A stretch of DNA of 33,831 nt from Candidatus Poribacteria bacterium (GTDB taxonomy: Bacteria; Poribacteria; WGA-4E; WGA-3G): NCBI GenBank assembly GCA_003635305.1, contig PYJE01000203.1:1-33831 (forward strand). The letters are read 5' to 3'. Both the position numbers and the translations under genes were made by a program. Positions 19,722 through 24,401 of this stretch are shown here, one piece after another (within the stretch, counting starts at the first letter, position 1; each line of letters begins with the position of its first letter). The notes beneath the pieces are model-generated. The model had not been told where the DNA came from, did not search any database, and saw nothing but the letters and a program-made list of their open reading frames with translations.

Positions 19722-21134
19722 ATGCCGCAAAGCGAAGAACATCTCCGCGACTACCTCCACCTCCTCCGCAAGCACGATTTCACTATCTGCTTGTGCGTTT
19801 TGCTCGTCCTCGGCACAGCCCTTGTCGTCGCCCTGCGTTTGCCGAAGACGTATGCCGCCTCCACCTTAATGCAGCTCGTCCAACCGAGTGCCACACCGTC
19901 CCTCTCCTCAACGAACCTGTTTCAAAGCGTCTTGTCTGGTGGCGGCGATAGGCGCGCAATGGAGACACTCAGCAGCCGCTTCACCACAGAATCCATGTTG
20001 CATACCGCAATGACAAATTTGGAAGACACGCGGAACATCGAAGGCGTAGCCCATCTGCCTCCCATCGGCAAACTCAAACGGGTGTTGAAAGCGCAAGTGC
20101 AACCCGATTCCGATTACATCGTGCTGACACTGGAATTGACTGAAGCGGAAGGCGGCGAACGGAACGCCGCACTCCTCGTCAACCAACTCGTGGAAGATAT
20201 GCAGGTGCTTCGCAGCGTTGATGAGCAGACGAAACTCGCTGAACGTCGACGCTTCCTCAACGAAAAACAGACGGAAATCGAACGTGAGACAGACAAATCT
20301 CTCAACGCCATCCTTCAATTCGTCCGAGAAAATGGGAGCCCCGAAATATGGACACCGATGCTTACCAATCTACTTGAACGGCGCGCGAGTTTGAAAACAG
20401 CATTGGAAGCAACGCGACAAAACCTTGAGGCGACGCGCGCGCATATCGCGTATTTAGAGGAGCAACTCCGCCTCCTCCCCGAACAAGTCTCGCTCTCCGA
20501 AACGACAGCACACAATCCAGTCTGGCTTTTTCAGCAGGAGAAACTCTTCTCCCTCAAATCGCAGCGCGTGGCGGATGCTGAAAAAGTCGGCAAAGATGTC
20601 TCGGAATTGAAGGGACTGGACGCGCAGATTACTGAGGTGGCGGCGGAAACCGAACGCACCACGCCAACGACAGCAACAGTCACCACCGGCACCTCCCCGC
20701 GTTATACCTATATCCAAAATCAACTTCTCGATTTAACGCCGGCACTTTCGCGCTATGAAAACGCACAGCAACAGCTGAAAGCGCAACTCCGGCAACTGAA
20801 TACGGAATTGGAACAGTTGATATCGCAGATTCCCGAAAACCAGTATCTCCTCACGCAGTTGCTCGCACGGGTTCAGAAAGCGAATGCATTGACAGAAGAG
20901 ATTGCCAAGCGCGCGCTGGAAGCGGAAATTTTAAGCGCGGAATCCACCGTGCCAACCTCTCGTAATCGGTTAGGCGGCATTGAGATTATTGACAGAGCCG
21001 TTCCTAGAAAGATTCCTGTCAGTCCGCAACTGAAACTCATCGTCATCATCGCCGGGGTTGTGGGGTTGGCGTTGGGGGTAAGCATCGCATTGTGCATTGA
21101 GTATTTTATACCCAATTCGGGCTCGCCATCGTAA
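19722..21134 (+). CDS. Wzz/chain-length-determinant-like polysaccharide co-polymerase
   Basis: N-terminal MPQSEEHLRDYLHLLRKHDFTICLCVLLVLGTALVVALRLPKTYAAST, long coiled coil, C-terminal IIDRAVPRKIPVSPQLKLIVIIAGVVGLALGVSIALCIEY. SD 'aaaggagagg'. Confidence 0.87.
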   Translation: MPQSEEHLRDYLHLLRKHDFTICLCVLLVLGTALVVALRLPKTYAASTLMQLVQPSATPSLSSTNLFQSVLSGGGDRRAMETLSSRFTTESMLHTAMTNLEDTRNIEGVAHLPPIGKLKRVLKAQVQPDSDYIVLTLELTEAEGGERNAALLVNQLVEDMQVLRSVDEQTKLAERRRFLNEKQTEIERETDKSLNAILQFVRENGSPEIWTPMLTNLLERRASLKTALEATRQNLEATRAHIAYLEEQLRLLPEQVSLSETTAHNPVWLFQQEKLFSLKSQRVADAEKVGKDVSELKGLDAQITEVAAETERTTPTTATVTTGTSPRYTYIQNQLLDLTPALSRYENAQQQLKAQLRQLNTELEQLISQIPENQYLLTQLLARVQKANALTEEIAKRALEAEILSAESTVPTSRNRLGGIEIIDRAVPRKIPVSPQLKLIVIIAGVVGLALGVSIALCIEYFIPNSGSPS

Positions 21135-21248
21135 GGGGGATGTCTATGTTTTCCCCCTGTGTTTTCCACTAACAACCGACAGTTATAGACATCTGTCTTT
21201 ACAGTTCATCCAAAAACTGAAACGTTCTGCTGCACATGATATTTCTTC

Positions 21249-21277
21249 TTGACATTTTCGGTGTTTTCGGGTATAAT
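21249..21277 (+). promoter_or_regulatory. Consensus sigma70-type promoter with leaderless spacing
   Basis: TTGACA (21249-21254), 17 nt, TATAAT (21272-21277); ATG at 21284, 6 nt after the -10. Confidence 0.8.
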
Positions 21278-21283
21278 AATTCC

Positions 21284-22015
21284 ATGTTCACTTATACGCA
21301 AACGCCTCGGGTCTATCTGGATCCGACGGTTATCAGTTATTTGGTGGCAGAACCGAGCCGAAATCCACAGCTCGCCTTGTGGCAATCGGAAAGCCGCCGT
21401 TTTTGGCAAGAGTATCATCATCAGTTTGCGTTTGTGGTTTCTGACACGGTTCTTTATGAAATCCGCAGAGGAGACGCGATGGAAGCGAGGAAGCGGCTCG
21501 CGGCAGTCGCACAATTTACCAAATTGTCTACGACTCCAAAGGTTGATGCGCTTGTCCAGCAGTTGCTTGCCTCGCGCGCCGTGCCCGAAAGCGCGGAAGC
21601 GGATGCAGCGCATATCGCCATCGCCACGGTGCATGGCGTGGATTACCTCGTCTCTTGGAATCACAAGCATCTTGTGAATGAAAACCAACTCAAGCAAATC
21701 AACCGTGTGTGCGAGGCGGCCGGCTTTCGGCCTGTCATCATCTGCACACCGACAACCTTAATGGAGGAATTTATCATGAAAGAAAAATTTGTTGGGAAGT
21801 GTTATCTCCCCGGCTTCGATCCGGAGACTTACACAGATCCGGTTCTCGAAGAGTGCTACCGTATCAAGCGGGAAATCAGCGAGGAGTTCGAGACGTATGA
21901 GGAACGCCGCGCGTATTTCATTGCGCTAGAGATAGAGAATCGGAAGAAGGGGGACAAGTATGCGCCGATTCCGCCGCACTTGGAACGGTATCCTCACCAG
22001 GAGGACGTAGACTAA
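21284..22015 (+). CDS. PIN-domain (VapC-like) toxin fused in frame to an antitoxin-like C-terminal module, copy 1
   Basis: PIN residues YLDPTVISYL, VLYEIRRGD, ADAAHIAIATVHGVDYLVSWNHKHL; no stop before DPVLEECYRIKREISEEFETYEERR module. Confidence 0.85.
   Translation: MFTYTQTPRVYLDPTVISYLVAEPSRNPQLALWQSESRRFWQEYHHQFAFVVSDTVLYEIRRGDAMEARKRLAAVAQFTKLSTTPKVDALVQQLLASRAVPESAEADAAHIAIATVHGVDYLVSWNHKHLVNENQLKQINRVCEAAGFRPVIICTPTTLMEEFIMKEKFVGKCYLPGFDPETYTDPVLEECYRIKREISEEFETYEERRAYFIALEIENRKKGDKYAPIPPHLERYPHQEDVD
21776..22015 (+). CDS. Candidate internally initiated antitoxin-like ORF A1 (79 aa)
   Basis: In-frame ATG at 21776 with GGAGG 8 nt upstream (atGGAGGaatttatcATG); equivalent stand-alone ORFs occur downstream. 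Confidence 0.6.
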   Translation: MKEKFVGKCYLPGFDPETYTDPVLEECYRIKREISEEFETYEERRAYFIALEIENRKKGDKYAPIPPHLERYPHQEDVD

Positions 22016-22040
22016 TCGCCGCGCGCCTGCGACGACGTGT

Positions 22041-22066
22041 CAGGGTGGAGAGACACATCCACCCTG
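22041..22066. terminator. Array hairpin 1 (function uncertain)
   Basis: cagggtgga...tccaccctg inverted repeat after A1. Confidence 0.6.
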
Positions 22067-22130
22067 GCATGTCCGCTTTCCAAACTGAACCTACATCTGC
22101 ACACCAACAACCTTAATGGAGGAATTTATC

Positions 22131-22370
22131 ATGAAAGAAAAATTTGTTGGGAAGTGTTATCTCCCCGGCTTCGATCCGGAGACTTACACAGATCCGGTTC
22201 TCGAAGAGTGCTACCGTATCAAGCGGGAAATCAGCGAGGAGTTCGAGACGTTCGAGGAACGCCGTGATTATCTCATTGCGCTAGAGATAGAGAGTCGGAA
22301 GAAGGGGGACAAGTATGCGCCGATTCCGCCGCACTTGGAGCGATATCCTCACCAGGAGGACGTAGACTAA
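22131..22370 (+). CDS. Stand-alone antitoxin-like ORF A2
   Basis: MKEKFVGKCYLPGFDPETYTDPVLEECYRIKREISEEFETFEERRDYLIALEIESRKKG...; same GGAGG leader. Confidence 0.72.
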   Translation: MKEKFVGKCYLPGFDPETYTDPVLEECYRIKREISEEFETFEERRDYLIALEIESRKKGDKYAPIPPHLERYPHQEDVD

Positions 22371-22418
22371 TCGCCGCGCGCCCGGGAAGACGTGTGCGGC
22401 GCGCCTGCGACGACGTGT

Positions 22419-22441
22419 CAGGGTGGAGGACATCCACCCTG
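22419..22441. terminator. Array hairpin 2 (function uncertain)
   Basis: cagggtgga...tccaccctg after A2. Confidence 0.6.
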
Positions 22442-22492
22442 GCATGTCCGCTTTCCAAAATGAGCCTATTAACTGTTGCACACCATAATTTC

Positions 22493-22521
22493 TTGACATT
22501 TTCTGCGTCTGCGGGTATAAT
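22493..22521 (+). promoter_or_regulatory. Consensus sigma70-type promoter with leaderless spacing, copy 2
   Basis: TTGACA (22493-22498), 17 nt, TATAAT (22516-22521); ATG at 22528, 6 nt after the -10. Confidence 0.8.
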
Positions 22522-22527
22522 GCTTCC

Positions 22528-23256
22528 ATGTTCACTTATACACGAACGCCTCGGGTCTATCTCGATCCGACGGTTATCAGTTATTTGGTGGCTGACCCGA
22601 GTACTCACGCGAAATTAGCTGCGTGGCAGGCGGAAAGTCGTCGCTTTTGGCACGACTTCCAGCATCAATTTGCGTTTGTGGTTTCCGGCACGGTTCTTGA
22701 TGAGATTTGCAGAGGAGACGCGATGGAAGCGAGGAAGCGGCTTGCGGCAGTTGCACATCTCACCAAATTGCCTACGACTTTAGCGGCAGATGCACTCGCA
22801 CAGCAGTTGCTCTCGGCGCGCGCCGTGCCCAAAAGCGCAGCGGCAGATGCAGAACATATCGCCATTGCCACGGTGCATGGCGTGGATTACCTCGTCTCTT
22901 GGAATCACAAGCATCTCGTGAATGCAAACCAACTCAGGCAAATCAACCGCGTGTGCGAGGCGGCAGGGTATCGGCCTGTCATCATCTGCACACCGACAAC
23001 CTTAATGGAGGCATTTATCATGAAAGAGATAATTCAAAAGTATCCGGTTCCCGACTTCGATCCGGAGACTTACACAGATCCGGTTCTCGAAGAGTGCTAC
23101 CGTATCAAGCGGGAAATCAGCGAGGAGTTCGAGACGTTCGAGGAACGCCGTGATTATCTCATTGCGCTAGAGATAGAGAGTCGGAAGAAGGGGGACAAGT
23201 ATGCGCCGATTCCGCCGCACTTAGAGCGATATCCTCACCAGGAGGACGTAGACTAA
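22528..23256 (+). CDS. PIN-domain toxin fused to antitoxin-like module, copy 2 (internal ORF A3 at 23020-23256)
   Basis: YLDPTVISYLVADPS, VLDEICRGD, ADAEHIAIATVHGVDYLVSWNHKHL; in-frame ATG at 23020 preceded by ATGGAGGCATTTATC. Confidence 0.85.
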   Translation: MFTYTRTPRVYLDPTVISYLVADPSTHAKLAAWQAESRRFWHDFQHQFAFVVSGTVLDEICRGDAMEARKRLAAVAHLTKLPTTLAADALAQQLLSARAVPKSAAADAEHIAIATVHGVDYLVSWNHKHLVNANQLRQINRVCEAAGYRPVIICTPTTLMEAFIMKEIIQKYPVPDFDPETYTDPVLEECYRIKREISEEFETFEERRDYLIALEIESRKKGDKYAPIPPHLERYPHQEDVD

Positions 23257-23300
23257 TCGCCGCGCGCCCGGGAAGACGTGTGCGGCGCGCCTGCGATGAC

Positions 23301-23332
23301 GTGTCAGGGTGGAGAGACATCCACCCTGACAC
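23301..23332. terminator. Array hairpin 3 (function uncertain)
   Basis: Perfect 13-bp stem gtgtcagggtgga/tccaccctgacac after A3. Confidence 0.65.
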
Positions 23333-23372
23333 GCCGCGGGCACGTCCGCTTTCCAAAATGGAGGCATTTATC

Positions 23373-23609
23373 ATGAAAGAGATAATTCAAAAGTATCCGG
23401 TTCCCGACTTTGATCCGGAGACTTACACAGATCCGGTTCTCGAAGAGTGCTACCGTATCAAGCGGGAAATCAGCGAGGAGTTCGAGACGTATGAGGAACG
23501 CCGCGCGTATTTCATTGCGCTAGAGATAGAGAATCGGAAGAAGGGGGACAAGTATGCGCCGATTCCGCCGCACTTGGAACGGTATCCTCACCAGGAGGAC
23601 GTAGACTAA
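23373..23609 (+). CDS. Stand-alone antitoxin-like ORF A4
   Basis: MKEIIQKYPVPDFDPETYTDPVLEECYRIKREISEEFETYEERRAYFIALEIENRKKG...; ATGGAGGCATTTATC leader. Confidence 0.72.
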   Translation: MKEIIQKYPVPDFDPETYTDPVLEECYRIKREISEEFETYEERRAYFIALEIENRKKGDKYAPIPPHLERYPHQEDVD

Positions 23610-23657
23610 TCGCCGCGCGCCCGGGAAGACGTGTGCGGCGCGCCTGCGACGACGTGT

Positions 23658-23683
23658 CAGGATGGAGAGAGACATCCACCCTG
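23658..23683. terminator. Array hairpin 4 (function uncertain)
   Basis: caggatgga...tccaccctg with one mismatch, after A4. Confidence 0.55.
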
Positions 23684-23747
23684 GCACGTCCGCTTTCCAA
23701 ACTGAACCTACATCTGCACACCGACAACCTTAATGGAGGCATTTATC

Positions 23748-23987
23748 ATGAAAGAAAAATTTGTTGGGAAGTGTTATCTCCCCGGCTTCGATCCGGAGAC
23801 TTACACAGATCCGGTGCTTGAAGAGTGCTACCGTATCAAGCGAGAGATCAGCGAGGAGTTCGAGACGTTTGAGGAACGCCGTGATTATCTCATTGCGCTA
23901 GAGATAGAGAATCGGAAGAAGGGGCACAAATATGCGCCGATTCCTCCGCACTTGGAGCGGTATCCTCACCAGGAGGACGTAGACTAA
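23748..23987 (+). CDS. Stand-alone antitoxin-like ORF A5
   Basis: MKEKFVGKCYLPGFDPETYTDPVLEECYRIKREISEEFETFEERRDYLIALEIENRKKGHKY...; ATGGAGGCATTTATC leader. Confidence 0.72.
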   Translation: MKEKFVGKCYLPGFDPETYTDPVLEECYRIKREISEEFETFEERRDYLIALEIENRKKGHKYAPIPPHLERYPHQEDVD

Positions 23988-24010
23988 TCGCCGCGCGCCT
24001 GCGATGACGT

Positions 24011-24041
24011 GTCAGGGCGGAGGTAAAAAATCCGCCCTGAT
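24011..24041. terminator. Array hairpin 5 (function uncertain)
   Basis: cagggcgga...tccgccctg, with a compensatory base-pair change relative to copies 1-3. Confidence 0.6.
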
Positions 24042-24401
24042 ACTCAGTGCGTCCGAAAATTGCATCTGGTAAGTCTGCATAAAAATATGGACATTTTTTG
24101 CAAAATGTGTATAATATCACCGATAAGAATTGGCGCGCGAGGCCGGCATCAGTTCGCGCCTGCCGATTTTTATGTTACAAAACCCGCGCGCTTGCGCGGA
24201 ATACGCTTGAAAAAATACTGCATTTTATGGTATGATGTGACAAAATCATATCACATGACGATGCGGATGCCTTTTTTCTGTCCGAGCGATTCAGTTCTCC
24301 CTTTCTGTTACCGGGAGGCGGCCCGTTGTCAATTTTCACTTTCACTACTTGTGGACAGCCAAACCGAAAACTGAATGTCTCTGTTTTTCTGTAAAAAATT
24401 G

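Follow-up and report, generated by a model that had tools for sequence, protein, structure and literature searches.

An array of genes in Candidatus Poribacteria, a sponge-symbiont bacterium, is at present best read as an antitoxin-biased toxin–antitoxin (TA) locus, toxicity, binding, neutralisation and buffering all being putative. It lies in a stretch of 33,831 nucleotides, referred to below as the window, and quite probably derives from a toxin-first, VapC-like type II module whose two reading frames became fused, which holds an internal start for the free antitoxin-like part and to which solo copies of that part were added. Four things are new here: an internal start that is conserved, fusion throughout one family, the series of copy numbers at one orthologous site and the insertion of the array; a literature search returned no paper on fused TA genes with an internal start for the antitoxin, nor any on Poribacteria PIN modules.

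The units follow one another on the forward strand, from 21249 to 24047, in the order T1-A1, A2, T2-A3, A4 and A5, where T denotes a PIN toxin-like domain and A the antitoxin-like module. The T1-A1 ORF (21284..22015; 243 aa), delimited by the ORF list, profiles and alignment, joins a PIN domain in frame to the 79-aa module A1 (21776..22015; profile and alignment); the earliest in-frame ATG of this frame is at 21236. A second fused ORF, T2-A3 (22528..23256; 242 aa; ORF list and profiles), is 83% identical to the first, and the solo genes A2 (22131..22370), A4 (23373..23609) and A5 (23748..23987), taken from the ORF list and profile, encode 78–79 aa each. The original prediction – two PIN ORFs each running into the module, plus three stand-alone copies, and hence two toxin-like against five antitoxin-like modules on one strand – agrees with the ORFs and with a profile search of the window, which returned two PIN and five A matches, all on the forward strand.

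The array contains a 300-nt repeat in five copies, 64–95% identical to the reference copy and thus far above chance. A2 and A5 have the same N-terminus as A1 (MKEKFVGKCYLPGFDPETY), whereas A4 begins like A3 (MKEIIQKYPVPDFDPETY) and resembles A1 in its second half, which suggests that the copies have recombined among themselves. In front of each solo gene lies a duplicate of the last stretch of the PIN gene – 37 nt before A2 (22094..22130) and A5 (23711..23747), the final 16 nt before A4, all on the forward strand – and this piece carries ATGGAGG...ATG, including the ribosome-binding site GGAGG of A2 (22118–22122), A4 (23360–23364) and A5 (23735–23739).

The toxin-like part, as modelled, is PIN-folded like VapC toxins. 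An AF2 model built from 25 homologues reaches a pTM of 0.85, and its top solved Foldseek matches are VapC structures (TM by target 0.60–0.68, probability up to 1.00), although no match reaches E 0.001 and some of the weaker ones are tryptophanyl-tRNA synthetases. The HMM search proposed along with the original prediction placed PIN below the Pfam cut-off (PF01850; T2 at E 0.0017) and found no Pfam or NCBIfam family for A; searches of PDB sequences, using the profile of the fused ORF and that of A, yielded chance-level matches only. Four positions of the PIN alignment would be candidates for the acidic active site of PIN motifs: position 13, occupied by Asp or Glu; E59 and D107, both without variation; and a fourth at which nearly all sequences have Asn (N126). 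The two PIN domains of the array differ by a dN of 0.10 against a dS of 0.44, so that both have been under past constraint. From the fold, we infer an RNase-type toxin.

The best 80 named relatives all come from Candidatus Poribacteria MAGs. Full-length fused ORFs, with toxin and antitoxin-like domains in one uninterrupted frame, number 76; among the matches listed they occur in a single family (f1), where fusion is general, whereas in other Poribacteria families A is a separate small ORF directly behind PIN, so that the fusion looks derived from a split, toxin-first arrangement. More distant split relatives in plasmid records bear the annotation 'type II toxin-antitoxin system VapC family toxin'; on a Thiodictyon plasmid, the A module is its own small ORF just behind a PIN annotated as a VapC family toxin, and on a Leptospira plasmid an overlapping small ORF is weakly similar to A. 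One locus of the unfused subfamily (L160, G081:C1:6361800-6366000) has a split PIN with three A-like ORFs in tandem behind it, an antitoxin excess there too. Elsewhere, at L029 (1471-2151), a full PIN and the intact start region of A are followed, in frame, by unrelated sequence in place of A.

By comparison with its relatives, the array is an insertion of roughly 2.9 kb specific to the window's lineage (21109..24078), flanked on one side by the gene of a protein with a Wzz/GNVR domain and on the other by a large ORF, 1108 aa long and conserved, that matches no Pfam family. In four relatives (G001, G004, G034 and G002), these flanking genes lie about 0.9 kb apart and the array is absent; aligned with G001, homology ends at about 21108 and picks up again at about 24079. 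The window's ORF list has no transposase-sized ORF inside the array, a phage origin was rejected, as phage records gave no match, and a PADLOC search produced no convincing match. At the right edge (24079–24140), a promoter-like TGGACA-TATAAT stretch is conserved in G001.

The survey of copy number that the original prediction called for found a series at one orthologous site, whose upstream flank is common to 17 sampled genomes and both flanks to at least 11 (77–95% identity). The site holds TA in L063, L055, L168 and L172 and, judged by the upstream flank, in L170 and L171; TA-A in L047, L049, L162, L163 and L165 and, by upstream flank, L166; TA-A-A in L159 (by upstream flank); a truncated toxin with A-A in L164; and A-A, the toxin gone, in L050, whose flanks are 93–94% identical to those of L047. 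Within the window's genus, L040 (A-TA) and L045 (TA-A) have both flanks in common. An excess of antitoxin recurs within the clade.

The same asymmetry is seen in eight near-closed genomes, where every full-length PIN (22/22) has A directly behind it, counting one A recognised on closer reading and one PIN, in G004, with an internal stop. The A matches listed there number 51, and at 23 loci A is present but no full-length PIN: 16 with A only (some showing small PIN remnants on closer reading), one A-A and six with a PIN remnant. At several toxin-less loci, all that is left of PIN is its end, in which the start of A lies, and some solo A genes in relatives are truncated. Being the shorter of the two, A would tend to outlast T under random decay alone; taking A as about one third of the target, the chance that decay spared it in all 23 losses would be about 0.7^23, near 3e-4, for loci that are not fully independent and of which some have a truncated A. 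Median dN/dS is 0.13 for solo A pairs and 0.15 for fused A pairs – noisy values over 56 codons, from pairs that are not independent – and the solo copies look constrained. Such a distribution across genomes is that of a toxin and its antitoxin, and the antitoxin-biased expansion originally proposed is supported by this imbalance and constraint.

The spare copies may have been kept mainly for protection in trans, as anti-addiction against related toxins that are encoded elsewhere in the genome or brought in by transfer, rather than for local dosage. We consider this possible but less likely than not; it bears solely on what the spare copies do and is compatible with our preferred explanation. 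A-only loci are common in the near-closed genomes, the window's own genome has further fused T-A loci and the array is itself an insertion, all of which would suit such a role, but many extra A genes stand directly behind their own T, which fits dosage equally well. One of the own-genome loci (L042, G000:C109:20800-25200) comprises a more divergent fused PIN-A, its junction without MKE, and a solo A.

What sets the fused genes apart is a second start within the frame. An internal Shine-Dalgarno (SD) motif, GGAGG, is followed after 8 nt by the in-frame ATG of A1 at 21776 (21763..21778, forward strand), and GGAGG likewise precedes the in-frame ATG of A3 at 23020 (23007..23022, forward strand); the typical junction reads ATG GAG GAx ATx CAG ATG AAA GAA. 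Among 72 dereplicated full-length fused ORFs, two of them unscorable for SD, the motif lies about 8 nt upstream of an internal in-frame ATG or GTG in 70/70, as compared with 7/53 for the remaining internal Met codons. Within the motif, the Glu codon is GAG in 63 of 64, against 36% (548/1543) over all Glu codons of the fused ORFs and 3 to 89% in other well-populated Glu columns, and where Glu has been replaced, the DNA stays SD-like (AGGAGA, AGGGAG, CAGGAG). The toxin's own start has an SD in just 2 of 73 distinct cases, whereas among 20 other long ORFs in the window, 12 show one at the first start codon. Given this conserved internal motif and codon bias, and toxin starts nearly all without an SD, A is probably also translated separately from within the fused gene.

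It might nevertheless be supposed that the fused protein is the sole functional form, a PIN nuclease inhibited in cis in the manner of EzeT (PMC4826407), with the internal start a relic of an earlier operon of two genes and the solo A genes debris. Apart from the EzeT precedent, the generality of fusion in one Poribacteria family, with split modules in others, means that the ribosome-binding site could be ancestral. A relic, however, would be expected to decay, and both GAG and SD have been kept over divergent sequences; the solo genes, too, look constrained, A2, A4 and A5 retaining SD and start exactly. We regard this account as unlikely.

The toxin start, for its part, looks different. Both T1 (21249..21277) and T2 (22493..22521) are preceded on the forward strand by TTGACA-N17-TATAAT, a perfect sigma-70 consensus (12/12), and as the −10 element ends 6 nt upstream of the ATG, their message is predicted to be leaderless or nearly so. 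The arrangement is clear in the window and in one own-genome relative; as a clade-wide rule, a leaderless start found no support, a promoter score of at least 9 being found in 11/73 fused genes versus 12% in shuffles. Split PINs at three loci (L061, L062 and L160) likewise have a perfect TTGACA-N17-TATAAT right at the toxin start.

Under the preferred explanation – that of a fused toxin-first module with surplus antitoxin – an ancestral two-gene module would have had its toxin and antitoxin frames fused, the fused ORF being expressed from a strong promoter and probably leaderless, without an SD. The second start inside the frame, with its conserved SD, would make free A, which, being SD-driven, would be expected to outnumber the T-A fusion; A would then act in cis within the fusion and in trans when free. 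Tandem duplication would have added the solo A genes, each together with the fragment of the PIN 3′ terminus in which its ribosome-binding site lies, and these may raise antitoxin dosage and tolerate toxin loss. More tentatively, a single gene could yield both a self-inhibited leaderless fusion and free A from an SD in the toxin's last codons, with solo-copy dosage differing by species; if so, the ratio of T-A to free A would depend on which translation start is used and might change where leaderless initiation is favoured.

Parts of this scheme have counterparts in known systems. VapBC shares the PIN fold, nearest to VapC structures, and a small adjoining partner, but has a separate antitoxin gene upstream, whereas the modules of the window are toxin-first and fused in frame (split but toxin-first in other Poribacteria), their partner has no recognised DNA-binding antitoxin domain and there are extra antitoxin copies. 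EzeT, in which the antitoxin is N-terminal and equimolar (PMC4826407), and Slr1999, a HicA-HicB fusion (PMC4963859), also place toxin and antitoxin on one polypeptide, apparently through fusion of a two-gene operon. Unlike EzeT, the fused ORFs described here have a C-terminal antitoxin, a conserved internal start and solo copies alongside; the solo genes and the internal ribosome-binding site point to a separate A, neither cis-only nor equimolar. An in-frame internal start that yields a second, regulatory product from one gene is known from McrB-L and McrB-S (PMC3874153), as is predicted for the window, albeit in a restriction system with unrelated proteins, where the shorter protein is no antidote but a truncated form of McrB. 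For Synechocystis 6803, toxin-first TA loci that are leaderless, being transcribed from the toxin start codon, have been reported (PMC4963859); there, the two genes are separate and start sites were measured, whereas in the window the leaderless toxin is predicted.

The puzzle of fused toxin–antitoxins is that they leave no room for surplus antitoxin; a second in-frame start and spare antidote genes may be the way out taken in this Poribacteria clade. As the signal lies at codon level, it can be tested directly by single synonymous changes. The orthologous site, meanwhile, offers a natural series of antitoxin copy numbers, including toxin loss with the antitoxin kept, which should help in studying the decay of TA modules and the possible retention of solo antitoxins as immunity.

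The A module itself has no recognised antitoxin or DNA-binding domain – one split relative touches NF050009, far under the cut-off – and AF2 models it alone as two helices (pTM 0.47). Both the want of a matching antitoxin family and the model of two helices only would suit an accessory subunit that targets the PIN nuclease to RNA or protein, extra copies changing the targeting, but such a role, which we hold to be rather improbable, would leave unexplained why a full-length PIN never occurs without A and why A persists after PIN is lost. At three loci (L190, 1580-2227; L072, 2527-3174; L073, 2489-3148), the A module is prolonged by some 150 aa; at L190, where no toxin adjoins it, this extension has no confident Pfam match.

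Even with an own genome that is a MAG, 87% complete and in 213 contigs, an assembly artefact is unlikely, since the copies differ, sit within a 33.8-kb contig and have like arrays of the same architecture in near-closed genomes, and that the array should be either an artefact or a functionless repeat expansion is hardly credible, its copy divergence being mainly synonymous.

The hairpin foreseen behind every unit is present in all five cases, on the forward strand and 3′ of A1 (H1, 22032..22075), A2 (H2, 22410..22450), A3 (H3, 23296..23336), A4 (H4, 23649..23692) and A5 (H5, 24004..24047). Folding against shuffled sequences gives z of −3.8 to −5.8, each hairpin beating nearly all shuffles. A terminator scan of the array detected no U-tract after them, so that they are not typical intrinsic terminators, and a dispersed genomic repeat was likewise rejected, as the own genome has the hairpin in this array only. 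H5 carries one compensatory change, a base pair altered on both sides from T-A to C-G.
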